Source: Deltaproteobacteria bacterium
GTDB lineage: Bacteria > Bdellovibrionota > Bdellovibrionia > Bdellovibrionales > JAMPXM01
DNA length: 64,000 nt
Assembly (NCBI GenBank): GCA_017302795.1
Contig: JAFLCB010000009.1
Span: 124,001-188,000, forward strand
Reading direction: 5' to 3'
The stretch's first letter is position 1, and the number at the start of each line of letters is the position of its first letter. The notes under the pieces are model-generated. The model saw only the letters and a list, made by a program, of their open reading frames with translations. It had not been told where the DNA came from and made no database searches. Positions 51,965 to 64,000 of this stretch are shown here, in pieces. The position numbers were made by a program, and so were the translations under genes.

Positions 51965-52489
51965 ATGAATCAAGTAACTGGAGTTCGGATCCTTACATTT
52001 TTGGGAGCACTGATTTTAATCGGCTTGGTATCTTTCGTAGCGCTACCGCAGAACGCTGAAGCCAAAGACCTCTCGAACCGACTAGGACTCGGATTTAAGA
52101 ATCAATCCAGCACAGAACTTCCCGGAATTGCGGTTCAATATTGGCCAGGTGCCGACTTAGGGCTTTCAGCCTCCCTTGGAATCGACACACAAACAAACAA
52201 CTCTAAATTTGGAGCGATGCTCAAACTTTACCGAGTGATTTTTCCCGAAGACAACTTGAACTTTTACCTTGGCGCAGGCGCAGGAATTTTAAGCCTTGAA
52301 ACTGCGGGAAACAATGAATCCGGATTTGAGCTAATGGGTTTCGCTGGTGTCGAGGCGTTTCTCGCAGGACTCGAAAATGTCGGGTTTAATTTTGAGTTCG
52401 GAACGGCAATTACGTCTATTTCTTCCGGTACCCGATTCCGAACTTTGGGTGATTCTCCGGTAAGAGCCGGCGTAACGTTTTATTTTTGA
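51965..52489 (+). CDS. Small outer-membrane beta-barrel protein
   Basis: Seen: 174 aa from ATG at 51965 (TTGGAGTC upstream; the open frame reaches 51890). Signal peptide ILTFLGALILIGLVSFVALP ending near NAEAKD. Eight or so amphipathic strands (LGLSASLGIDTQTNNSKFGA, LNFYLGAGAGILSLETAG, GFNFEFGTAITSI) and a C-terminal VRAGVTFYF with terminal Phe, which fits the BAM signal. Inference: an eight-stranded barrel like those in OprF/Omp25 families. It lies directly before the motility operon but 440 bp away and is likely independent. Confidence 0.72.
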   Translation: MNQVTGVRILTFLGALILIGLVSFVALPQNAEAKDLSNRLGLGFKNQSSTELPGIAVQYWPGADLGLSASLGIDTQTNNSKFGAMLKLYRVIFPEDNLNFYLGAGAGILSLETAGNNESGFELMGFAGVEAFLAGLENVGFNFEFGTAITSISSGTRFRTLGDSPVRAGVTFYF

Positions 52490-52928
52490 TGCTCGGTTTT
52501 TCCTTTTTTTCAACGCCTCTTCTAATACCTCCTATAATCTACACCATTAGTTACTGGGCGAACCGCTACTAAAATCGAGTACGCCCGAATATTGAGAATC
52601 CTTGCCGGCAGCCGGTCTTGGGCCAAATGACTCACTCCCTGCTTCACTTTCTGAAATGACTTCCAAAACCAGTGGTCAAGTTGACACCTGATGTCACTCC
52701 TCCGATACTTGCGCGACGTTCCCGTGGACCCATTTTGAGACTTTCGCTAGATTCTGGGTCCAACGCGAAACGTGCAGCCGCAGTTGCGAGTTCAAACGAA
52801 CTGCAACTCGACTGAAATTAAAAACAGGAAGCAAGCTTCGTAAAAGTTTGAAATTAACAATTTCTCGTGGGGACGAGACGAAACTTTGAATCAAACAGAT
52901 CAAAGGTTTGAAAGTAAGGGAGACGGAC
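52490..52928. promoter_or_regulatory. Structured leader region upstream of the motility operon
   Basis: Seen: 440 bp with no credible gene. It contains a strong hairpin at 52782-52808 (AGTTGC-G-AGTTC / GAACT-GCAACT, 11 pairs with one bulged G, loop AAAC), a small inverted repeat GAAGC/GCTTC near 52828-52839 and another, GAAATT-aac-AATTTC, at 52850-52864. The ribosome-binding site AAGGGAG of the first motor gene follows at about 52917. Inference: promoter and 5' untranslated leader with possible post-transcriptional control. Confidence 0.45.
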
Positions 52929-53630
52929 ATGGAAATGCTATCGAAAATCGCAACAGCCTTCGAACATGGTGGATTCTGGATGTGGCCAATTCTTGGTTTC
53001 CAACTAGCATCGATCGCAATCATGATTGAGCGCGCAGTTGCACTCTTCGGTAAACGAAAAGTCAGCCAAATGACTTTTGTTTCAACTTTTGAAGATGCTG
53101 TTCGCCGTGGCGAAATGGAAACCGTCATTCAAAAAGCGGAAGCTGCAAAAGCAACTTCCCCTGTGGCACGTGCTGTCTCTGCTGGTGCAGTAGTCGCACG
53201 GTCGTTTGGTGGTCGCGAGGAAATTCAAGGTAAAATGGATGAAGTACTACTTCACGAAAACGCACTCCTCGATAAACGAGTCGGCTTCCTGGCGATGCTT
53301 GGTAACGTTGCGACACTGACTGGTCTGCTCGGTACGATCACGGGTATGATCAAATCGTTCGCTGCCGTATCTTACGCAAACCCAGCAGAGAAAGCTTCTT
53401 TGCTCGCGGCCGGGATCGCAGAAGCAATGAACGCGACCGCGTTTGGTCTTATCGTCGCCATTCCCGCACTTGTTGCCTTCGCTGTTCTTCAAAACCGCGC
53501 GAACGTTTTGGCGGACGATATGAACCAAGCGGCTCTGAAAGCATTTAACTGGTTGAGCTATTCTTTTGATCCAATCACGTCGAAAGCTCAGGCTAGCAAA
53601 GCTGCTCGTCATCCAGAAGCGAACGCTTAA
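52929..53630 (+). CDS. TolQ/ExbB/MotA-type proton channel protein (AglR/AglQ-like)
   Basis: Seen: 233 aa from ATG at 52929 with GGGAG 6 nt upstream (the frame opens at TTG 52908). TM1 about 15-37 (FWMWPILGFQLASIAIMIER), TM2 and TM3 about 120-190 with the family core LGNVATLTGLLGTITGMIKSF and EAMNATAFGLIVAIPALVAF. Known: ExbB/TolQ proteins form the pentameric stator that, with ExbD/TolR partners, converts proton flow to mechanical work; AglR/Q is the version that drives Myxococcus gliding. Here it starts a nine-gene operon with Glt-like partners, so the Agl type is inferred from context. Confidence 0.9.
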   Translation: MEMLSKIATAFEHGGFWMWPILGFQLASIAIMIERAVALFGKRKVSQMTFVSTFEDAVRRGEMETVIQKAEAAKATSPVARAVSAGAVVARSFGGREEIQGKMDEVLLHENALLDKRVGFLAMLGNVATLTGLLGTITGMIKSFAAVSYANPAEKASLLAAGIAEAMNATAFGLIVAIPALVAFAVLQNRANVLADDMNQAALKAFNWLSYSFDPITSKAQASKAARHPEANA

Positions 53631-53701
53631 ACGTTCGTCTATTCGCGCTGAAATGTGTCTCGTCGTGAAGTGCGACGAAACCTGACTTGGAGTGAGAAGA
53701 T

Positions 53702-54154
53702 ATGAGCAAGAAGCACAAGCATCTCGAGTTCGAAATTAACCTGATTCCTGCAATCGATCTTTTGTCGGTTTGTATCTGCTTTCTTCTTTTGACGGCAGTC
53801 TGGCTTCATGTTGGCGCGCTTAACGTCAAGCAAGCGGTCGGTGGTCAACCGGCCAGCGAAACTGCGAAGAAGCCAACTGTTTGGGTTCAGATCAATGGCC
53901 AAGGGGATGTGGCTCTCGATGTCCGCGACGCCCGTGTCCCGGCGAAATTGGCAAAAGCAAAAGTACCAGGAAAAGAAGGTAAGCCCGATCTTGAGGCCTT
54001 AAAGGCATTGGCTCTGGAACTAAAGTCGGCTGAGCCGACGCTAACCACGGTACTGATTCAGCCACAGGCCGCAACAGTATATGAGGCCATTATTGATGTG
54101 ATGGACTCATTCAAGAAGCAGGGAATGATCGACCTAGGAGTTTCGCCGCTCTAA
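53702..54154 (+). CDS. TolR/ExbD-type motor protein, first copy (AglX/AglS-like)
   Basis: Seen: 150 aa. Short cytoplasmic N-terminus, one TM (about 15-36) with the proton-carrying Asp19 in NLIPAIDLLSVCICFLLL, then a periplasmic domain (PTVWVQINGQGDVALDVRDA to GMIDLGVSPL). AGTGAGAAGA lies upstream of the ATG. It would pair with the TolQ-like protein. A second member follows immediately, as in the Myxococcus AglS/AglX pair. Confidence 0.9.
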   Translation: MSKKHKHLEFEINLIPAIDLLSVCICFLLLTAVWLHVGALNVKQAVGGQPASETAKKPTVWVQINGQGDVALDVRDARVPAKLAKAKVPGKEGKPDLEALKALALELKSAEPTLTTVLIQPQAATVYEAIIDVMDSFKKQGMIDLGVSPL

Positions 54155-54161
54155 AGCGGCG
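54144..54161 (+). promoter_or_regulatory. Intercistronic hairpin carrying a stop codon in its loop
   Basis: Seen: CGCCGCT (54144-54150), loop CTAA (with the TAA stop of the first tolR-like gene at 54152-54154), AGCGGCG (54155-54161). The ribosome-binding site GAGGGG of the next gene begins on the last stem base. A ribosome terminating here would open the stem and free that site; a translational-coupling device is the likely role. Confidence 0.5.
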
Positions 54162-54173
54162 AGGGGATTGATA

Positions 54174-54668
54174 ATGTTAAACAACAGTATTGTTAAAATG
54201 TCGGCCTTCCATAGCATCATTCATGAGTCATCTGTATTGGCTCCTGAGGGTGATAAGAAGCATCGGAATATTGTCGCAGATTTGCTTCTAACGGCGCTGA
54301 TTGATGCGTTTTCGATTCTCGTTATTTTCCTTCTGATGAGCTTCTCGTCAACTGGCGAACTTTTGATGGTAGGAAAAGGGATGGAGCTTCCGAAAGCGAG
54401 TGGCGACACGCTTGAGCGAAACCCAGTTGTGAAATTTGAAGAGGGAAAGCTCTTTCTTGAAGATAAAGAAGTGACGCCTAACAGTTTGGTTCAGGCACTT
54501 TTGGATCTCCGTAAAACTCATCAAGAAAATCGTCCAGGAGAGCCGTTCCCTGAGCAGTTGACTGTTCAGGCGGATCGTCGCGCGAAGTTCGAACAGCTAA
54601 GTGCCATTGTTCAGGCATCGGCCCAAGCGGGCTTCAGTGATATCAAGTTTGCCGTCGTGATGAAGTGA
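54174..54668 (+). CDS. TolR/ExbD-type motor protein, second copy (AglS-like)
   Basis: Seen: 164 aa from ATG at 54174 (GAGGGG upstream). A longer cytoplasmic N-terminus than the first copy, TM about 37-57 with Asp44 in LLTALIDAFSILVIFLLM, and a periplasmic domain with a TolR-like end (FSDIKFAVVMK). Two different TolR-like proteins next to one TolQ-like protein is the pattern of gliding motors. Overlaps the TPR gene frame at its end. Confidence 0.9.
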   Translation: MLNNSIVKMSAFHSIIHESSVLAPEGDKKHRNIVADLLLTALIDAFSILVIFLLMSFSSTGELLMVGKGMELPKASGDTLERNPVVKFEEGKLFLEDKEVTPNSLVQALLDLRKTHQENRPGEPFPEQLTVQADRRAKFEQLSAIVQASAQAGFSDIKFAVVMK

Positions 54669-54700
54669 TTGGCGAAGTCGTGATTGAAAAGGGGGCGTCG

Positions 54701-57700
54701 GTGGCGCGAGGGACAAGCAAAAATCTAAACAGCTTAGGTATTAGCGGCATCGCAAAGTCTTTGGCTGTCGTGACCATTTTGGCATTGGCATTTGAAGCAA
54801 AAGCCCAGTTGGCTGATGCGAAGACGCGAGATTTACTAATTAACAAATTAACTCAAGTCTACATGACGTTGGCGCCTGCCGATTCGGCGCGAACCCCTCT
54901 CACTACGCGCTTGGCGGATCTTCACGCGGAACGGGCGCGCCAAGAGGCGATGGCCGAACTCCAGGCGGGTTGCACAGTATGCAATGCTGGCACAGAAGAT
55001 CGAAAAAAGGCACTTCGTTACTACCAAGAAGTATTACCGAAACTCAATGATTCTCAAGTTGCAAAAGTACTTCCTCAAGTTGGTCATCTCTACCAAATGA
55101 CGGGACAAGAGAAACTCGCAGTTGAGACTTACGAAAAAGTCATCAAAGACGGTAAGCAACCAGAGGCTGTGGCCGAAGCGCATCTGTCGCTTGCGGAACT
55201 CGGCTTCAAAAAACGCGATTTCGAATCGGCAAAATCCCATTACGGAAAAGTGCTCAGCATTCCCCAATCTAGTTCGAAGGGTTTGGCAGCCTACCGCATA
55301 GCTTGGTGTGAATTTAACCTCGGTAACTTAGAAGCCTCAATTTTAGGATTAAAGAAAGTATTAACGACGCCCGAGTTGTCATCAAGAAGTGCTACCGGCG
55401 GAGTGGTTCAGGTTGACAAGCAATTCCAAGAGGAAGTTTCTCGAGATCTCGCAACTTTTCTCGCACGTCGTCCTGTTACTTCCGACGATGCGAAAATGTT
55501 GTTCGATCTCAGTCCTGAAACCGTGAAACTTCCGAACGTCATCTATTTGGCGGGTGAAACTGAACGACTTGGTCAAGGAAAGAGTGCCATCGCTTTATGG
55601 CGTTTTGCTCAAGAGCGGCAGTCAAAGCCTCGCCTAAAAGTAGAGGGTCATATCCGGATTGCTCAGCTTGAAATGGAGCAGAAAAATCCCAGAGCTGCTG
55701 GGCAGGAATTTGATCTGGCGATGAACCTTTGGGGAACTGCGATTGGGACTTCACCAGAAACTCAAGCTGACGACCAGGTTAAAGAAATGAAAGCTCGTCT
55801 TCGGAAGCTTGTCCTCGACTGGAATCGCGCAGAGAAAAAAGCGCCTTCGGACGAACTTTCGGCTGCGTACAAAGCCTACCTTTCGACCTTTCCTGAAGAA
55901 GCAGATATGACCGTTTGGTCCGCTCAGGTTGGCCGTGAACGAAAAGAATTTGCTAATGCCGTTGCTCTTTACAGTCGAGGCGCGCAGCTTTATTCGGCAT
56001 CCGCTAAATCTGCCGTTAAAGCAGAAGACAAAAAAGGGGAGATAGAAGGTCTAGAAAATGCTCTTCTTGGAGCCATCGAAACTGCTGAAATTTCAAAAGA
56101 CAATGCTCTATTGGTTAGTGCCTACGATTCTTATCTGACGCTCTCACTTGATAAGAAACGCGAAGTAGAGGTTCTTTACCAGAAAGCCAACATCGCCTAC
56201 CAAAACCAGGAGTATCCAGCCGCGTCTGAGCAAATGCGCGCAATCGCATTTATGACGGCTGCGAAATCCCCTGATGCTTTAAAAGTGAGAATGCAAGCTG
56301 CGGATCTCGCATTAGACGCCCTTGTCCTTATGAAAGATGATGAGAAGATTGAAAAGTGGGCGAAGGACTTTGCGGGATTATTTCCCAAAGAGGCTCCGGA
56401 GTACGCGAAAGTCGCGCGAAAGTCGGTATTGACACAGTCGGCGGCGTTGGCGTCCAAAGCAACGGAAGGTGCTGCCGCAGTTGATCTCGAGAAGGCATGG
56501 ATGGTGCTTTCACGTTTTGATCTTTCAACGACGACGCCAGAAGACAAGGTCGCATATTTAAAGAATCGCCTGATCCTCGCCGAGAAAACCAAGCGATTTG
56601 CAGAAGCTCGTGATTCTGCTGACCAACTTCTCAAGCTTGCCGGAACTTCAGCAGAAGACAAGCAGTACGCTTTGTCGCGCAAGGCGTGGCTGGCTGAGCT
56701 TATTCTTGATTTCGATACCGCTCTCAATGCGACGGAACAAATTCTCCCAACCAAAGACGTACCTGAAGATCAAAGGCTGTTAAAACTTGCTATGTACGCT
56801 GATCTTGCGAATAAAGACACGCGTCCGTATCTTTCGAAATATCTTGGAGTTTCCAAGGACGAGGATAAACAGCTGACAATCGCCAGCCAACTTGTCCGAG
56901 AGGCAAAAGAGCCACTGAAAGAACTCGATAAACAAAAGTCAGTTCTGCTGAAAAAGCCGGAACTTTACGGCGAAATTGCTTTAGAAATTGCCGCGAAACT
57001 TGAAAAGGTTGAAATCGCAAAAGCGGCTCTGACTCAAAAAGGTATCGTTGGTACGAACCCTGGTCGCCTACTTTCTCGCATGGTGATTTTGGATGAAGTT
57101 TCGATTCAGAAAGCGAAATTCGCGGCACATGTTATCGATGGCTCTAATCAAAAGAAGTTAGCGTCGACGCTCAAAGCTCGTATCGCGATGATTGAATCTT
57201 TGGAAAAGACAGCCGGTAAGGCCGTCGAAAGCGGAGATTGGACGACTCAATTGGTGAGCCTCGATTTCCTCGCAAAAGAGTCGGAGCGTTTTTATTCTGA
57301 AATTCTCTCTCTTCCAATGCCAGCCGGCTTATCGCCAGAGGATGAACAGCAATACCTTGGTCTCTTGTCCCAACAAGCTGCGCCCTATCAGATTAAAGCT
57401 CAAGACGTGAAGAAAAAGGTTGAGGAGTTCTGGGCCAACAAGTCGGCAGTTCAAGCGTTGGAGAAGTCTCTTGTTTCGTCAACGGGCGCACTTCGGTCGC
57501 TCGTCGTTAAAGAAATTAAGCTTCTTGCGTCGGTTGCGCCGGACACTTCTAAAGCTGAACTTGAAACATTGGCAAATCGACCCGAAGCGAACGCAGCACT
57601 TAAGCCGAACCTCGCACAAATTGAGCAAGCACGACAAGCTGTTCGCGAAGAGCCTTTAAGTACCGCTCGTCTTGAGGCGCTGCTTGGACTTGAGCGCCAG

Positions 57701-57790
57701 GCTGGACGCGTTGGAATGGTTTCGTATCTAGAGGGGCGAATTCAAAATGCCGGTGCATCAGCTCCGGCGACGACAGGGGGTTCAAAGTGA
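54701..57790 (+). CDS. Large periplasmic TPR protein of the motility operon (GltD/AgmU-like)
   Basis: Seen: 1029 aa from a GTG at 54701 with AAGGGGG upstream; GTG codons at 54665 and 54680 are also in frame. The start gives a classic signal peptide (LAVVTILALAFEAKAQ). Early CxxC (AGCTVCNAG). Many TPR units, e.g. LYQMTGQEKLAVETYEKVIK, LGFKKRDFESAKSHYGKVL and LGQGKSAIALWRFAQE. Known: GltD/AgmU is a large periplasmic TPR protein of the Myxococcus gliding machine. Inference: periplasmic connector. Homology to GltD is by size, location and repeat type only. Confidence 0.78.
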   Translation: MARGTSKNLNSLGISGIAKSLAVVTILALAFEAKAQLADAKTRDLLINKLTQVYMTLAPADSARTPLTTRLADLHAERARQEAMAELQAGCTVCNAGTEDRKKALRYYQEVLPKLNDSQVAKVLPQVGHLYQMTGQEKLAVETYEKVIKDGKQPEAVAEAHLSLAELGFKKRDFESAKSHYGKVLSIPQSSSKGLAAYRIAWCEFNLGNLEASILGLKKVLTTPELSSRSATGGVVQVDKQFQEEVSRDLATFLARRPVTSDDAKMLFDLSPETVKLPNVIYLAGETERLGQGKSAIALWRFAQERQSKPRLKVEGHIRIAQLEMEQKNPRAAGQEFDLAMNLWGTAIGTSPETQADDQVKEMKARLRKLVLDWNRAEKKAPSDELSAAYKAYLSTFPEEADMTVWSAQVGRERKEFANAVALYSRGAQLYSASAKSAVKAEDKKGEIEGLENALLGAIETAEISKDNALLVSAYDSYLTLSLDKKREVEVLYQKANIAYQNQEYPAASEQMRAIAFMTAAKSPDALKVRMQAADLALDALVLMKDDEKIEKWAKDFAGLFPKEAPEYAKVARKSVLTQSAALASKATEGAAAVDLEKAWMVLSRFDLSTTTPEDKVAYLKNRLILAEKTKRFAEARDSADQLLKLAGTSAEDKQYALSRKAWLAELILDFDTALNATEQILPTKDVPEDQRLLKLAMYADLANKDTRPYLSKYLGVSKDEDKQLTIASQLVREAKEPLKELDKQKSVLLKKPELYGEIALEIAAKLEKVEIAKAALTQKGIVGTNPGRLLSRMVILDEVSIQKAKFAAHVIDGSNQKKLASTLKARIAMIESLEKTAGKAVESGDWTTQLVSLDFLAKESERFYSEILSLPMPAGLSPEDEQQYLGLLSQQAAPYQIKAQDVKKKVEEFWANKSAVQALEKSLVSSTGALRSLVVKEIKLLASVAPDTSKAELETLANRPEANAALKPNLAQIEQARQAVREEPLSTARLEALLGLERQAGRVGMVSYLEGRIQNAGASAPATTGGSK

Positions 57791-58062
57791 TGAAATTCGG
57801 TAAAGCATGGTTGCTTGTATTTGTGTTCGTAGCACCGGTTTTCGCAATCATCGCACAAGATGCTGGCGCACAAGATGCGGCAGCAACATCCAAAAAGAAA
57901 AAGTCGACGGAAGTCAGTTTCGACGATGTTTTGGTTCAAGGTAAATATCATTTTTCAGACGAAGCGGTAACAACAGTGGAAGACGATAAAATTCTTGATG
58001 CCCTCTTAGGGGTCCGCACGGACTTCAAAGATAGGGTTAAGAAGTCGACTTCAAGGCAGTAG
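57790..58062 (+). CDS. Small exported protein in the motility operon
   Basis: Seen: 90 aa from ATG at 57790, overlapping the TPR gene stop by one base (TGATG). Signal peptide LLVFVFVAPVFAIIAQDAGA. The mature part is short and charged: a Lys-rich stretch (SKKKKSTE) then a compact segment VSFDDVLVQGKYHFSDEAVT. Such segments occur between TPR and TonB-like genes in this kind of cluster in related genomes as far as I recall, but I cannot name the family. Probably a periplasmic accessory factor. Confidence 0.65.
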   Translation: MKFGKAWLLVFVFVAPVFAIIAQDAGAQDAAATSKKKKSTEVSFDDVLVQGKYHFSDEAVTTVEDDKILDALLGVRTDFKDRVKKSTSRQ

Positions 58063-58112
58063 TCGCCGGTAGCTATTTGAACGGTTTCGAACGAAGTTTT
58101 GCGGAGATTGAA

Positions 58113-59261
58113 ATGGAAGCAAAGAAATTAGCACTAGAAAATTTGGATGGCGTTGTCGTTCGCACTTTGGCTTGGCCAAGCGACGAGTCGGACGTGCTCA
58201 CAGTCATTCGCCGCAAAGATACTCGCCGTGTCGAACTTATGACGACGTTGGCGGGATTAAATGCCGAACGCATCGAGTTCGAAACGCTAGGTACCATTGA
58301 TCGAAAAGATCTGGAAACAGGGATGATCACGATTGCTGGCATCGGCCGACTTGTTCCAACTTCGCCAACTTCGCGAACTTTGGAAAACGTTCGGTTGCGA
58401 CAAGACTCGGACAATCTTTGGCGCGGGTCGGTTGGTGCCGTTTTGATGGGTGCGATAATCTTCATGTCGGTTTTGGCCTCACGACCGAAAGACAACCCGA
58501 AGATCGAACAAGAATTGAAACAGCAGGTCGTGCAAATCATTAAGCGAATTCAGGTGAAACCGCAGCCAGTGCAAAGCAAAGTTTCTGACACACGCACGGA
58601 GACGCCGAAAGAAACGACGAAAGTTGTCAACAAAGCTGCATCGATAAAACGAATGGGTGCGCTTGCTGTTTTTGGTCAGATGAAAAATGGAGCCCAAAAA
58701 GGTGGAGTGAATCTCGGAGCAGTTAACACCACTGCAGGACCTGGTTTAGGTGGAAACGCCGGCTCTGGGGGCGTTCAAACTTCAATTTATGGCAAGGGCC
58801 TCGTTGCGGCACCCCTTGGCGCCGGAGGCAATATGCAAGGTGGCGGCGGGTATGGCACCAAAGGTAAAGGCGGGGGACAGGCCGGTTACGGCCAGATCTC
58901 TCTCGTCGGTTCCGCAGGTACAGCACCAATTCCACTTGGTCGTGAGGCGATTATCGGTGGTGGTCTTGACCGCGATCTTATTGCGGATGTCATCAATCGA
59001 AATCTTGGACAGATCCGTTTTTGCTACGAGCAGGGTCTGCAAGGCGATCCGGCGTTGGCTGGACGGGTAGCAGTTGATTTCACGATCGGCGGTAACGGCC
59101 AAGTGAAGGTTGCAAACGTAGGCTCAACAACTTTGAATTCCAAGCTTGTTGAAGATTGCATTCTACTTCGTTTGAAAACTTGGAAGTTTCCACTGCCCGA
59201 GGGTGGAGCTGACGTAAAGGTATCTTATCCATTTGCACTTCGCCGTACGGGCCAGGGCTAA
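58113..59261 (+). CDS. TonB/AgmX-type trans-envelope protein (GltG/GltJ-like)
   Basis: Seen: 382 aa from ATG at 58113 with GGAG 6 nt upstream (TTG at 58077 in frame). A cytoplasmic N-terminal domain of about 100 residues, one TM (about 105-122), a Lys/Gln-rich stalk, a long Gly-rich linker (about 205-280) and a C-terminal TonB-like domain (LIADVINRNLGQIRFCYEQG ... GRVAVDFTIGGNGQV ... LKTWKFPLPEGGADVKVSYP). Known: GltG (PglI) and GltJ (AgmX) of Myxococcus have this layout and link the inner-membrane motor to the outer membrane. Cys pairs in FCYEQ and EDCILL are typical of that domain. Confidence 0.85.
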   Translation: MEAKKLALENLDGVVVRTLAWPSDESDVLTVIRRKDTRRVELMTTLAGLNAERIEFETLGTIDRKDLETGMITIAGIGRLVPTSPTSRTLENVRLRQDSDNLWRGSVGAVLMGAIIFMSVLASRPKDNPKIEQELKQQVVQIIKRIQVKPQPVQSKVSDTRTETPKETTKVVNKAASIKRMGALAVFGQMKNGAQKGGVNLGAVNTTAGPGLGGNAGSGGVQTSIYGKGLVAAPLGAGGNMQGGGGYGTKGKGGGQAGYGQISLVGSAGTAPIPLGREAIIGGGLDRDLIADVINRNLGQIRFCYEQGLQGDPALAGRVAVDFTIGGNGQVKVANVGSTTLNSKLVEDCILLRLKTWKFPLPEGGADVKVSYPFALRRTGQG

Positions 59262-59326
59262 ACGGTAGAGCGCAAGTGTTAGCGATTATGGGTAAAATGG
59301 GTTTTGATAAAAAGGGGATCTTCAAT

Positions 59327-60685
59327 ATGTCACTTTCAAAGAAAATTGCCCGAACAAGCCGCGTGATAGCGGCCATGTTTGTTGTTTCGGCGGCGATCGG
59401 CTGTTCGGTCAATCAGGACCCATTTGAAGAAAAATCAGACCAGATTAAAAACGGCGTCCCGCCAGAATTGGATAAAGAACCGCCAGTTCCGAAACCGCTT
59501 GCAAGCGATGCATTGCGAATTGATGCATTGGACTTCTACACTTTCAAGGAAGAAGTTGAAGGGGAAATTTCAATTTCAGGTCGTGTATTGACCGCTAATC
59601 CTCAGTTTGAGCTGACGATTGATTCCACGAGTCTTAAAGATTTCCCTGGCGCTGTGTTTGACGGAAAAACCGGAGTTTTCAAATGGACGCCGCCTCGTGA
59701 ATCAACGGGCCAAGAGTATGGTATCCCGAAGCGCTTAGTTGTTCGTTTAACTGCGCCGTCGCCAGTCGGTGGAGCGATTATCGGAACGACCAAAGCCATT
59801 TTGGTGTACGTTACGCGCTCGGAAGTTGATCCGCAAATTTTGACTACCGACGATCTCGTTCGAACCCCTGTGCGAGAAGGTGAATTGAGAAAATTCACTG
59901 TGACTGTTCGCGATCCAGATTCACTTGATGTCGATGGGTTGCGCCCGCGTCTTGTAGCTGTTCCAGCTGTCCGAGGTCCATCTGATGTGTCGGGTTTGAT
60001 CTACATGCAGGAACCGACATCGAGTACTGATCTGAATCCCGTCCAAGATCCAATGGATAAAAAGAAGTGGATTTTTAAAATGGTCGTCGATCTCCGCGTG
60101 CCCACCGACATGCGCGGTCGCGATTTCACTCGCGCTCAGGATAAATTCAAGTTTGGTTTACAAGTGACTTCACGCTTCGGCCGCGTTGGGTACAAAAACG
60201 ACGGCGAGGTGATGATTTGGACTGACATCATGAAGCCGGAAATCAGTTGGTTCAGCCCGATTGAAGTCATTGCTGGCCAAGAAAACGTAGTGCAATTCAC
60301 AGTCTTTGATCCCTACGCTGAGGGTAAGCTGACTGTAAACTTCCAGACTCGCATTGACCAGTTACCAGGTTCTGCGATCAGCAAATGTATCCCCGCTTCG
60401 CGCGAGGGAAATATTCTCTGCACAATTAGCTGGAAACCGCTCGCGACGACAACAGGAGACTTCAAAGTTGATATCGAAGTTATCAACCAAAGTAAGATCC
60501 CTGGTGATATCAAAATTCAAAAAGAACTTTTCCAACGCACGTTGAAAGTAAAAACTATTCCGGTTGCTCCGCCAGTCGTGCCAGCGCCACCAGTGGCGCC
60601 TGCTCCAGTCGAGCCAGCGCCAGTGGCGCTTGCTCCAGTAGCTCCTGTGGTAGAGACGCCAACAGTTACGCCTGCGGTTAATTAA
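59327..60685 (+). CDS. Lipoprotein with Ig-like domains and a Pro/Ala/Val-rich tail
   Basis: Seen: 452 aa from ATG at 59327 (AAAGGGGA upstream; the frame opens at 59276). Lipobox AIGC with Cys26. Three or more beta-sandwich-like domains (GRVLTANPQFELTIDSTSLK, VFKWTPPRESTGQEYG which is a cadherin/He-PIG-like phrase, FTVTVRDPDSLDVDG). The last 45 residues are repeats of PVAPAPV type. Inference: an outer-membrane-anchored periplasmic spacer of the motility complex. No exact Glt counterpart can be assigned. Confidence 0.75.
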   Translation: MSLSKKIARTSRVIAAMFVVSAAIGCSVNQDPFEEKSDQIKNGVPPELDKEPPVPKPLASDALRIDALDFYTFKEEVEGEISISGRVLTANPQFELTIDSTSLKDFPGAVFDGKTGVFKWTPPRESTGQEYGIPKRLVVRLTAPSPVGGAIIGTTKAILVYVTRSEVDPQILTTDDLVRTPVREGELRKFTVTVRDPDSLDVDGLRPRLVAVPAVRGPSDVSGLIYMQEPTSSTDLNPVQDPMDKKKWIFKMVVDLRVPTDMRGRDFTRAQDKFKFGLQVTSRFGRVGYKNDGEVMIWTDIMKPEISWFSPIEVIAGQENVVQFTVFDPYAEGKLTVNFQTRIDQLPGSAISKCIPASREGNILCTISWKPLATTTGDFKVDIEVINQSKIPGDIKIQKELFQRTLKVKTIPVAPPVVPAPPVAPAPVEPAPVALAPVAPVVETPTVTPAVN

Positions 60686-60707
60686 TTAAGAGAGAATGAG
60701 GAATTAT

Positions 60708-61430
60708 ATGAAAAGTTCAAACAGCCTTACCAAAGCTCTCTCGATAGCGGCGACCCTGATGCTAGCAACTTTGACGGTTGAAATTTCGGCGGCGGCAGAT
60801 CTTCTAAAAGACTTCGATACCCTTGGTGGTAACGATGTTCTGCTGGAAAAAGCTCAAGCGCTAAATCCAGACGCACAAATTCGCATCGTCCAGGACCGGG
60901 TTGTCAATCGACGACGACGACTGGAACTTTCGCCTGAGTTTTCTTCTGTAATTGGCGGCGATGCCTACAACACGACGTCAAACATCGGTTTGAACGCTCA
61001 CTATCACTTCACTCCTCAGTGGAGCGTGGGACTTAAGTATAACTACTCGTTCAATCAATTGCGCCAAGAGGGTGAGTACCTCCTTACTGACACTTCGATC
61101 AATGGGAAGGCTCAGATCCCACAAATCGACTTCCCTAAGCAACATGCGATGATGGTGATCAACTGGTACCCCATCTATGGGAAAATGAATTTGTATGATC
61201 TAGGCGTCGTTCATTTTGATGTTTATGCCCTCGCAGGTGCCGGACAAATGGAGCTCAAATCTGGTCCCACAACCTCCTACACCGGCGGTGGCGGGATTGG
61301 TTTCTGGGTCTCTCAGCATCTTTCGACTCGCTTAGAGCTTCGCTATGAAGGTTACTCGGCGAAGCGTTTTACCGGTGATACGAATATGAATACGACTGTT
61401 GCAGGTATTCAGATCGGCTACATGCTATGA
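60708..61430 (+). CDS. Outer-membrane beta-barrel of the motility operon (GltA/B/H-like)
   Basis: Seen: 240 aa from ATG at 60708 (GAGGA upstream). Signal peptide ATLMLATLTVEISAAAD. Barrel strands such as TSNIGLNAHYHFTPQWSVGL, VHFDVYALAGAGQMELKSGP and TRLELRYEGYSAKRF; C-terminus AGIQIGYML. The ELSPEFSSVIGGDAYNTTSN entry is typical of the outer-membrane barrels found in deltaproteobacterial and Bdellovibrio Glt-type clusters. Known: GltA, GltB and GltH of Myxococcus are such barrels and contact the substratum adhesin. Confidence 0.82.
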   Translation: MKSSNSLTKALSIAATLMLATLTVEISAAADLLKDFDTLGGNDVLLEKAQALNPDAQIRIVQDRVVNRRRRLELSPEFSSVIGGDAYNTTSNIGLNAHYHFTPQWSVGLKYNYSFNQLRQEGEYLLTDTSINGKAQIPQIDFPKQHAMMVINWYPIYGKMNLYDLGVVHFDVYALAGAGQMELKSGPTTSYTGGGGIGFWVSQHLSTRLELRYEGYSAKRFTGDTNMNTTVAGIQIGYML

Positions 61431-63121
61431 AATTGCGTAATGCTTTAAATCGGAATTTTCTAAATGGTTTCTTTATCCTAAGTGTTTCGCTAGTTTCCGG
61501 GCTGGCTCCTGGAATAGCAATTGGCCAAAACGGCGAGGCGACTGCCAACCAAGAGGATGAGCTACTGAATATTCTTGGTGGCCAAGGCCCTTCGGCGGCT
61601 AAATCAAAAGATGGCGAAAGCCTTCTTGCGAAAGCGATCAAGGCCGCACAAGGGAATGTATCTGCCGAGCAAAATATATTTCTCCAATTCTTTGATTCAG
61701 GTGATTTTGAGAAGTCGCTCTTTCAATGGCCCGCGGCCTTTGAGGGTAGTTCTTTTGCGAAGACACCTTCTGGGCAGGCGCTGAACGCACTTGTGCTTTT
61801 TAAAAACGGCATTCAGGTGACGTCACTTGAAATGCTACTCGCGATCGAGAATCCAAAACAAATTGATGAATACATTCTGCAAAAGTGGCGTGAAGCTGCT
61901 CCAGACAATGCGCCTGTGTGGGCTGCGATTAATACAGCAACATGGAACAATGGCTGGACTGAAGTCTTTGGAATCGGAGCCGAAGTTCGAGTGCGCGGAC
62001 GGCAGGTCTATACTGCTGACCAAGCGGAACTCGTAAAAGAATTGATCAAAAAGACTCAGATCGACACGCGCGAACGCGCTTGGCTGTCTTGGCAGTTGGT
62101 GATTGCCTTGGCTCAAGGAGACGACGCCGGTCTCGCTGGAAAAGCTTTGGCGGTTTTAATGAAAGCCCCCAACAATCCAGTTAGCCAGGATTTAATGACG
62201 ATGACAGCGGCAAGACTTCTTTTCCAAAATGGCTTTTTGGATGCAGCTTCGAATTACTATCAAAAAATTCCTAAGGCCTCGGACTATTGGTTTGATGCTC
62301 AAGAAGAGTTGGCTTGGGCTCAAATCCGGAAGGGTGAGCCGCAGAACGCGATTGCGGTTACTAAAACTCTCGTCGCTCCAGCTTTTAGTTCGCAAGTCGG
62401 CCCAGAACCTTTCTTCTTACGATCCTTAGCGCAGTTGAAAGTCTGTGATTATCCATCTGTCGTAAGTACCTTGAACAGCTATCGGGAGCGATTCAAGCCA
62501 CGTGCGACTGAACTGACGAAGCTGACAGAGTCTGCAAATACTCCAGCGGTTGTACGATTGATCGAGCGACTTAAAAAAGGTCCTGCGAAGTTGACTGATC
62601 TAGGCACTGACGCTGCTTTGCTTCCTCGATTCGTCACAAGAGATGCGGCTCTCGTGCAGAACGTTTTGACTGAGAAAGCTCTTGAAGGCGAGTCGAAACT
62701 AGCGGGAGAATTGTACGCACGATCTCTGTCTGGTGGAACGGCACAAGTAGGGTTCCAGGCGCGTCTCGAAGCCTTTAAAAAAGCAGTTGAAACGCGAACA
62801 GTCGCTGCGCGTTCCGCGACTTATGGTCGTGTGAAGTCGCTAGCTGTTGAAGAACTCGCAGAAATTTCGGCGATGCTTCAAAAGCTTCACATTGTTGAAG
62901 CCGAACTCCTCCAACAGATTTCAATCGCCGATAGAGTGATCTCAGCAACTCAAGGCCGTACGTCGACCAAAGCCGGCACCACAGGAAGCCAAGCGAAAGA
63001 CAAAGTTTGGTTTCCAGCAGAAGGCGAGACTTGGTTCGATGAATATGCGAACTACAAAGTCGACATCAAAAAAGGTTGCGCGGCCGCAAACACTTCGAAA
63101 CCGGCGACGGCTAAACCTTAA
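61427..63121 (+). CDS. Periplasmic TPR protein (GltE/AglT-like)
   Basis: Seen: 564 aa, ATGA overlap with the barrel gene (61427-61430). Signal peptide FFILSVSLVSGLAPGIAIGQ. Sel1/TPR-like helical repeats through the middle (AARLLFQNGFLDAASNYYQK, EELAWAQIRKGEPQNAIAVT). A distinctive C-terminal element VWFPAEGETWFDEYANYKVD, then KKGC, resembles the conserved end of the GltE-type TPR proteins of gliding clusters. Inference: periplasmic part linking motor and outer-membrane complex. Confidence 0.8.
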   Translation: MKLRNALNRNFLNGFFILSVSLVSGLAPGIAIGQNGEATANQEDELLNILGGQGPSAAKSKDGESLLAKAIKAAQGNVSAEQNIFLQFFDSGDFEKSLFQWPAAFEGSSFAKTPSGQALNALVLFKNGIQVTSLEMLLAIENPKQIDEYILQKWREAAPDNAPVWAAINTATWNNGWTEVFGIGAEVRVRGRQVYTADQAELVKELIKKTQIDTRERAWLSWQLVIALAQGDDAGLAGKALAVLMKAPNNPVSQDLMTMTAARLLFQNGFLDAASNYYQKIPKASDYWFDAQEELAWAQIRKGEPQNAIAVTKTLVAPAFSSQVGPEPFFLRSLAQLKVCDYPSVVSTLNSYRERFKPRATELTKLTESANTPAVVRLIERLKKGPAKLTDLGTDAALLPRFVTRDAALVQNVLTEKALEGESKLAGELYARSLSGGTAQVGFQARLEAFKKAVETRTVAARSATYGRVKSLAVEELAEISAMLQKLHIVEAELLQQISIADRVISATQGRTSTKAGTTGSQAKDKVWFPAEGETWFDEYANYKVDIKKGCAAANTSKPATAKP

Positions 63122-63130
63122 GGGGGACTC

Positions 63131-64000
63131 GTGAAACGATCTTATGCAGTTTCAGTTTTCACGGTGATGGCTACATCTATCGCGCTCATGATGAGTGCCT
63201 GCTCACCAGCGTCTCCAAAATTAGTCCCACTTCCGTTGGTGAAAAAGGAACGGGTTCGCAACACGGGCGGATCAAAAGTTTCTTTTAATCGCGCAGTCGA
63301 TATTTTGTTCGTCGTGGACGATTCTGGGTCGATGGGTGAACATCAGACGAGTTTGGCGCAGAACGTAAAGCTATTTACCCAAGGGATTTGGGCGAATCAA
63401 ATCTTGGATTTTCACATCGCTGTTACGTCTTCCAATATGGACTCTGATCCGTATCAGCCCAAACCGGGCTATGGGTGGAAGGGTGAGCTGAACGGTGTAA
63501 CAAAGTACGTGACTCGAAACACCCCCAACGGGCAGCGAGAGCTCGAATCTAATTTGTTAATTGGCACCGAAGGTTCCGGAAGTGAGACTTTCTTTACTCC
63601 GGTTAAGGCTGCTTTGACGGCTCCGATGGTTCAAGGTCCGAACAAAGGATTTTTCCGTCAAGATGCTTATCTTGCGGTGATTTTCGTTACCGATTCTGAT
63701 GATCAGTCGAACCTCAATGCCCAGGATTTCTTTAAGTTTTTGGTTAATTTGAAAGGTGGCGACCCATCGAAGGTCATCGCCTACGGAGTTTATATTCCGA
63801 ACGTCGATAAGACCTGCAATCGATCGAGCGAAAATCTGCCGAACAAGCTCGAGGAGTTTTTTGGGTTGGCAAAGGCGCAAACTCTTGGTCTTTGTGATCC
63901 AGATTATGGAATGAAGTTATCGGAACTTGGGGCAGACCTGGTTCGTCGTGTCGGGAGCGTGCTTTACTTGTCGCGACCACCGCAACCCGATACGATCTTC
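63131..64000 (+). CDS. VWA-domain lipoprotein, CglB-like adhesin (3' end beyond window)
   Basis: Seen: from GTG at 63131 with AGGGGG upstream, 290 codons to the window edge. Lipobox MSAC with Cys24. The VWA domain begins with AVDILFVVDDSGSMGEH, a complete MIDAS DxSxS (D63, S65, S67), followed by FHIAVTSSNMDSDPY and the second conserved core VIFVTDSDDQSNLNA. Cysteines at TCNRSS and GLCDPDYG. Known: CglB of Myxococcus is an outer-membrane VWA lipoprotein that acts as the focal adhesin of gliding, attaching to the substratum through a metal-ion-dependent site. Its place at the end of a Glt-like operon makes the same role likely here. Confidence 0.87.
   Translation, partial: MKRSYAVSVFTVMATSIALMMSACSPASPKLVPLPLVKKERVRNTGGSKVSFNRAVDILFVVDDSGSMGEHQTSLAQNVKLFTQGIWANQILDFHIAVTSSNMDSDPYQPKPGYGWKGELNGVTKYVTRNTPNGQRELESNLLIGTEGSGSETFFTPVKAALTAPMVQGPNKGFFRQDAYLAVIFVTDSDDQSNLNAQDFFKFLVNLKGGDPSKVIAYGVYIPNVDKTCNRSSENLPNKLEEFFGLAKAQTLGLCDPDYGMKLSELGADLVRRVGSVLYLSRPPQPDTIF

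Follow-up and report, generated by a model that had tools for sequence, protein, structure and literature searches.

The 64,000-nucleotide stretch of DNA analyzed here (hereafter, the window) spans positions 124,001-188,000 of contig JAFLCB010000009.1, from a 4.23-Mb, 98.6 per cent complete genome of a bacterium that shares its order, Bdellovibrionales, with Bdellovibrio bacteriovorus HD100 and belongs to a different family. At the 3′ end of the window lie ten plus-strand genes (52929-64171 in window coordinates), separated from their neighbors by −4 to +71 bp, whose predicted products resemble the Agl/Glt gliding machinery of Myxococcus and include a putative adhesin. The last gene extends 171 bp beyond the end of the window (full gene, L009:11131-12171), and no further glt or agl genes are found 3′ of it.

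The first three genes encode an AglR-type, TolQ-like proton-channel subunit (233 aa; 52929-53630; PF01618, E = 1.4e-25) and two TolR-like subunits, one of AglQ type (150 aa; 53702-54154; PF02472, E = 5.2e-15) and one of AglS type (166 aa; 54168-54668; PF02472, E = 6e-14). They are followed by genes for a GltD-like exported protein with TPR matches (1041 aa; 54665-57790), a small exported GltF/CglF-like protein (91 aa; 57787-58062; NF033764 gliding_CglF, E = 1.7e-6), a GltG-like inner-membrane protein that is a candidate TonB-type force transducer (394 aa; 58077-59261; NF033760 gliding_GltG, E = 2.2e-40), an Ig-like lipoprotein (469 aa; 59276-60685; lipobox Cys43), a GltA/GltB-type outer-membrane beta-barrel (244 aa; 60696-61430; TIGR04565 OMP_myx_plus, E = 8.1e-30), a GltC-like periplasmic TPR protein (564 aa; 61427-63121; NF033756 gliding_GltC, E = 2.3e-17), and a putative surface lipoprotein (346 aa; 63131-64171, of which the window holds the part to 64000) with a von Willebrand factor A (VWA) domain and a metal-ion-dependent adhesion site (MIDAS). 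A preliminary description of the window had listed these genes as one plus-strand run, and all of them are present; its small '90-aa' protein without a named equivalent, however, is the 91-aa GltF/CglF homolog, and the gltC and aglQ genes that it sought beyond 64 kb are both inside the window.

The operon is conserved. Ten-gene order is identical in 16 of the 20 loci fetched from relatives of several families and in HD100, and the run is therefore not a chance assembly. In HD100, a genome recognized by its Bd0875, which agrees with the published protein in length and residues, all ten genes lie in the same order at 2.272-2.283 Mb. Four tonB/agl operons have been published for Bdellovibrio (Bd0412-0420, Bd0828-0838, Bd1473-1483, and Bd2368-2377; PMC2797640), and the secretion-signal flags reported for Bd2369, 2370, 2373, and 2374 (PMC12546842) land on GltC, GltA, GltF, and GltD, respectively. 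Because the ten genes, the position, and these flags agree, we equate the HD100 operon with Bd2368-2377, and sequence comparison identifies the window operon as an ortholog of this barely studied gliding-homology cluster. The two form a joint clade in the motor, Glt, and VWA phylogenies (GltG, 49 per cent identical; VWA protein, 41 per cent identical); they differ in that the HD100 operon is not followed by the Mla/RidA genes described below and has no adjacent upstream barrel gene.

In a phylogeny of 42 AglR sequences, the window TolQ-like protein belongs to a clade (support 100/100) with myxobacterial AglR and the homologs from the genome's other Glt clusters, whereas TolQ and ExbB of E. coli and the genome's other TolQ/ExbB proteins fall outside of it. 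Forcing the window AglR to group with Tol-type proteins cost 100 log units (approximately unbiased [AU] test; P-value ~1e-97). Scores against the TolQ, ExbB, and TolR equivalog models are far below their cut-offs (83 vs 221, 64 vs 206, and 40 vs 127 bits, respectively); no TolB, Pal, or TonB-dependent receptor is encoded among the ten genes, and the genome encodes its TolQRA-like proteins (L074) and an ExbBD-TonB-receptor set (L011) at separate loci. By homology, the operon motor is of the Agl type, neither Tol-Pal nor ExbBD. In the motor trees, a sister relationship of the window proteins to Myxococcus AglRQS is compatible with the data (AU test; P-value = 0.33 for AglR and 0.17 for AglRQS); these trees do not decide whether the window motor or the motors of two other loci of the genome (L072 and L073) are nearest to Myxococcus AglRQS, and we used them for Agl-type membership only. 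The genome also encodes an MglA that is 60 per cent identical to that of M. xanthus.

Thr129, Thr136, and Thr170 of the AglR pore are unchanged in 16 orthologs, as is the membrane-helix Asp46 of AglS (16/16). The membrane-helix Asp19 of AglQ, at a position where a proton-binding Asp would be expected, is present in the window protein, but six of the 16 orthologs have Ser or Asn in its place. Given the invariance of the AglR threonines and of AglS Asp46 and the variability of AglQ Asp19, the essential proton site of the family is probably on AglS. A single one of the two TolR-like subunits may suffice to drive the motor.

For the remaining proteins, curated gliding models of NCBIfam, which appear to be based on myxobacterial proteins, gave scores below their cut-offs for GltG (138.9 vs 650 bits), GltC (63.0 vs 450 bits), and CglF (27.9 vs 90 bits). 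Two models were exceeded: TIGR04565 OMP_myx_plus for the barrel (103.9 bits; cut-off 60) and NF033768, the AgmX/PglI C-terminal domain, for the GltG-like protein (105.6 bits; cut-off 40). Apart from these two, the scores under the cut-offs lead us to treat the proteins as homologs and not as confirmed orthologs. In profile-profile alignments (hhalign) of 16 orthologs against Glt proteins of myxobacteria and of the genome's own other clusters, GltD was matched with a probability of 99.9 per cent (E = 1e-37; 827 columns), GltA/B with 99.7 per cent, GltC with 99.5 per cent, and GltF with 95 per cent. The myxobacterial genomes (Myxococcus sp. CA023, Hyalangium versicolor, an Anaeromyxobacter metagenome-assembled genome, and Minicystis rosea) were reached via their MglA. 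At the level of sequence, eight of the ten operon proteins are homologous to Myxococcus AglR, AglQ, AglS, GltD, GltF/CglF, GltG, GltA/B, and GltC. The assignment of the region to an Agl/Glt-type system in the preliminary description is borne out: neither a grouping of the TolQ/TolR-like proteins with Tol-Pal or ExbBD nor an absence of Glt similarity, the outcomes that it had named as contrary to its assignment, was found.

The GltG-like protein is predicted to consist of a cytosolic part of ~95 aa, a transmembrane helix (~112-134), a Gly-rich linker, and a TonB-like C-terminal domain (299-388). Its AlphaFold2 (AF2) model is poor overall (predicted local distance difference test [pLDDT] score of 59.6), and we used only its C-terminal tip, which matches TonB C-terminal domains in Foldseek. 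No FHA domain was matched by Pfam in the window protein, whereas the GltG proteins of two other loci in the genome (L071 and L072) have one.

To place the operon among related systems, we reconstructed a phylogeny from the GltG C-terminus, GltC, GltA, and GltD. The window type forms a clade of Bdellovibrionales sequences only (10 rows; 100/100), apart from Glt and Nfs of Myxococcus, which group with the L072 cluster of the window's own genome (95/95). Requiring the window type to group with Myxococcus Glt cost 121 log units (AU test; P-value = 2e-6). L072 (C2:404-416 kb), one of five GltG-bearing Agl loci in the genome, has the order barrel-barrel-GltC-GltD-GltE-GltF-GltG(FHA)-AglR-Q-S and scores higher than the window operon for GltG and GltC (256 and 174 vs 139 and 63 bits). 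We assign L072 to the Bd0828-0838 type from its gene order and the literature. It is an Agl/Glt cluster that coexists with the window operon and is more Myxococcus-like in having an FHA-bearing GltG, GltE, and two barrels, and its run includes neither an Ig nor a VWA gene. The equivalence to the Myxococcus gliding machine that the preliminary description implied is not supported, in view of the rejected grouping and this closer homolog.

A second type, comprising Bd0411/0412-0420 of HD100 and a copy in the window's genome (L070, contig C15), has the same ten-gene order, including the Ig-type and VWA lipoproteins. It differs in its short GltC and forms a separate, paralogous branch (support 99/100 for AglRQS and 99/96 for Glt). 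For the Bd0411/0412-0420 cluster, an early bdelloplast peak has been published. Another Agl cluster, found in both the window's genome (L071:8003-12326; C2:58-62 kb) and HD100 (L245:17126-18819), encodes, upstream of AglR, a protein similar to a part of GltJ; the HD100 cluster is preceded by the MIDAS gene Bd1483.

The MIDAS motif of the VWA lipoprotein is complete (D63xS65xS67-T131-D188); these residues and the lipobox (Cys24) are invariant in 11 aligned orthologs and near-invariant in 17. The best family matches of the protein are CglD (41.6 bits; cut-off 400) and the Bdellovibrio MIDAS adhesins (35 bits; cut-off 700). Several Myxococcus VWA proteins match it, and none can be assigned as CglB; of the preliminary claim that cglB lies in the motor operon, the VWA/MIDAS lipoprotein therefore stands, and we could not demonstrate that it is a CglB ortholog. 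The Bdellovibrio MIDAS adhesins Bd1483 and Bd0875 (PMC11003981) likewise combine a lipobox with a VWA/MIDAS domain, and Bd1483 is also located beside agl genes, but both branch outside of the operon-VWA clade and the window protein scores far under the Bd0875-family cut-off, which Bd0875 itself exceeds (378 aa; C22, D66, E213, Y349; NF052240, 730.7 bits). Of the related genes in the Bd1473-1483 cluster, bd1483 could be deleted with no effect on predation, and biofilm predation was lowered when a transposon disrupted bd1481 (aglR) or bd1483. The VWA phylogeny tracks the operon's own lineages, and the presence of a putative adhesin gene inside the operon is, to judge from the compared loci, conserved and not a local oddity. 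In Myxococcus, CglB and CglD are unlinked (PMC4488436), whereas the HD100 clusters Bd1473-1483 and Bd0412-0420 each have a VWA lipoprotein beside their agl genes; an in-operon adhesin is therefore the rule here, unlike in Myxococcus. The arrangement that the preliminary description singled out as unusual is thus standard in this order.

Further VWA genes were observed. In one relative (L063:13649-15832), the VWA lipoprotein gene is doubled in tandem at the operon end, an apparent adhesin duplication. Elsewhere in the window's genome, another Agl/GltG locus has beside it a gene (L073:9730-11388; C1:49.7-51.4 kb) for a VWA-type protein of 552 aa that weakly matches MtsD (cell-cell cohesion). In Hyalangium versicolor (L255; C46:85 kb), a VWA protein of ~396 aa that scores 52.6 bits to the Bdellovibrio MIDAS adhesins is encoded ~18 kb from AglRQS genes.

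The Ig-like lipoprotein is predicted to have three Ig/cadherin-like domains (~80-180, 187-300, and 308-426; AF2 mean pLDDT 78.7). The Foldseek matches of the model (E-values down to 7e-11) are ectodomains with cadherin/Ig repeats; they reflect a generic beta-sandwich fold and say nothing about function. We rejected its identification as GltA/B, CglC, or GltE (hhalign probabilities <3 per cent), in agreement with the preliminary view that it has no named equivalent. Strong matches are almost confined to the order, and the protein is just 23 per cent identical to its HD100 counterpart. Sequence and profile searches characterize it as a lineage-specific component without a Myxococcus homolog.

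We consider it likely that the operon encodes a paralogous trans-envelope motor of the Agl/Glt type, specific to Bdellovibrionales and with its adhesin encoded in the same operon, and that this motor probably serves gliding or a surface interaction such as exit from prey. By analogy with AglRQS-Glt of Myxococcus, AglR and the AglQ/AglS pair would form a proton-driven motor in the inner membrane, beside which the GltG-like protein would pass force to GltD and GltC, together with GltF, by way of the Gly-rich linker and the TonB-like domain at its end. These periplasmic proteins would connect to the GltA/B-type barrel, and the barrel assembly might display or pull the two lipoproteins, of which the MIDAS/VWA candidate adhesin would grip a surface or prey material and the three-domain Ig-like lipoprotein could serve as a stalk or link, possibly standing in for GltE, the second barrel, and CglC. 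The outcome would be directional traction, that is, gliding, or active attachment and detachment. Published protein abundances are indirectly in line with such a role: Bd2368-2377 proteins are at least 4-fold up at prey exit, which its authors read as gliding-assisted escape (PMC12546842).

Several points weigh against this reading. Profile searches and hhalign found no counterpart of GltE (expected between GltD and GltF), a second GltA/B barrel, CglC/GltK, or GltH-J among the ten proteins, and GltE, the second barrel, CglC, and GltH-J are needed in Myxococcus; the operon is accordingly not 'complete', as the preliminary description had it. The replacement of AglQ Asp19 in relatives belongs here too. 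Transcripts of Bd2368-2377 rose in host-independent growth but showed no rise 30 min into predation (PMC2797640); the cluster may thus act in growth or in the envelope. Luciano 2011 favors Bd0828-0838 as the Bdellovibrio gliding machine, and we found no mutant of the Bd2368-2377 cluster in the literature consulted.

Among other explanations, the least improbable is that the motor resembles Nfs and acts in envelope biogenesis, shifting surface polysaccharide or lipoproteins and not the cell; we regard this as unlikely. In Myxococcus, the polymer of the spore coat is moved by this same motor acting with Nfs proteins (PMC3858216), and both the rise of the HD100 cluster in host-independent growth and the Mla-type lipid-transport and LolC-like genes directly 3′ of the window operon would fit such a function. 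However, Myxococcus Nfs is not the nearest relative in the Glt phylogeny, and a dedicated MIDAS adhesin is present in every operon copy, which indicates the binding of something outside. Still less probable is that the operon is the ortholog of the Myxococcus Agl/Glt gliding machine itself (AglRQS-GltA-K with CglB/CglD; PMC3169522, PMC4488436), with parts lost or re-ordered. The two share the motor type and five Glt homologs, VWA lipoproteins are gliding proteins in Myxococcus as well, and the motor trees alone permit a sister relationship, but the window operon lacks the components listed above and FHA, includes its adhesin gene, and belongs to a distinct clade, while L072 has the stronger GltG and GltC scores, FHA, GltE, and two barrels, and is joined to Myxococcus Glt/Nfs in the Glt phylogeny. 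Generic TolQ/TolR and TonB-C similarity could suggest a Tol-Pal or ExbBD-TonB system extended by accessory genes, but this is hardly credible in view of the low equivalog scores, the tree placement, the separate sets elsewhere in the genome, and the gene content of the operon.

Extending the preferred reading of a Bdellovibrionales-specific motor with its own adhesin, we tentatively propose, with more doubt than confidence, that Bdellovibrionales duplicated the Agl/Glt core and, by adding an adhesin and a three-Ig stalk to the operon, arrived at a self-contained adhesion motor of their own, and that at least two adhesin-specific motors per genome serve different stages of predation (early bdelloplast vs exit), with the paired adhesin, and not the motor, setting what the cell grips.

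According to a 2026 review (PMC13104615), Bdellovibrio gliding still lacks an identified motor, adhesins, and force path, and finding them is a major challenge. With the operon and its HD100 ortholog, the parts can be listed concretely, from the motor, transducer, and barrel to a candidate stalk and a candidate adhesin, and their genes stay together in one order across Bdellovibrionales. To the published cluster, our comparisons add homology-based names (GltF, GltD, GltC, and GltA), a GltG that lacks FHA, a three-Ig lipoprotein specific to the lineage, and a putative MIDAS adhesin that is conserved. They also caution against annotating the cluster as 'the' Myxococcus gliding machine, of which a closer homolog exists elsewhere in the same genome.

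Upstream of the ten-gene core, a plus-strand gene for a small outer-membrane barrel (51965-52489; PF13505, E = 5.8e-4), a possible partner, sits 440 bp 5′ of aglR. A comparable barrel gene precedes aglR in the loci of four relatives (L050, L051, L052, and L058). This protein, which matched no Glt family, could be the missing second barrel. Between the two genes lies a plus-strand sigma-70-like promoter match (52681-52709; TTGACA-17-GATACT, 10/12), which is a consensus match only, three promoter-like sites being found in the region vs 1.2 expected by chance. Downstream, RidA begins 1 bp past the VWA stop codon and is followed by genes for ElyC/YdcF-like, MlaE, ABC ATPase, MlaD-like, and LolC-like proteins in a nearly gapless run (L009:12173-17690; C9:188173-193690), and no convincing terminator was found between the VWA gene and this run. 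The downstream Mla/Lol neighborhood is retained in the same four relatives.

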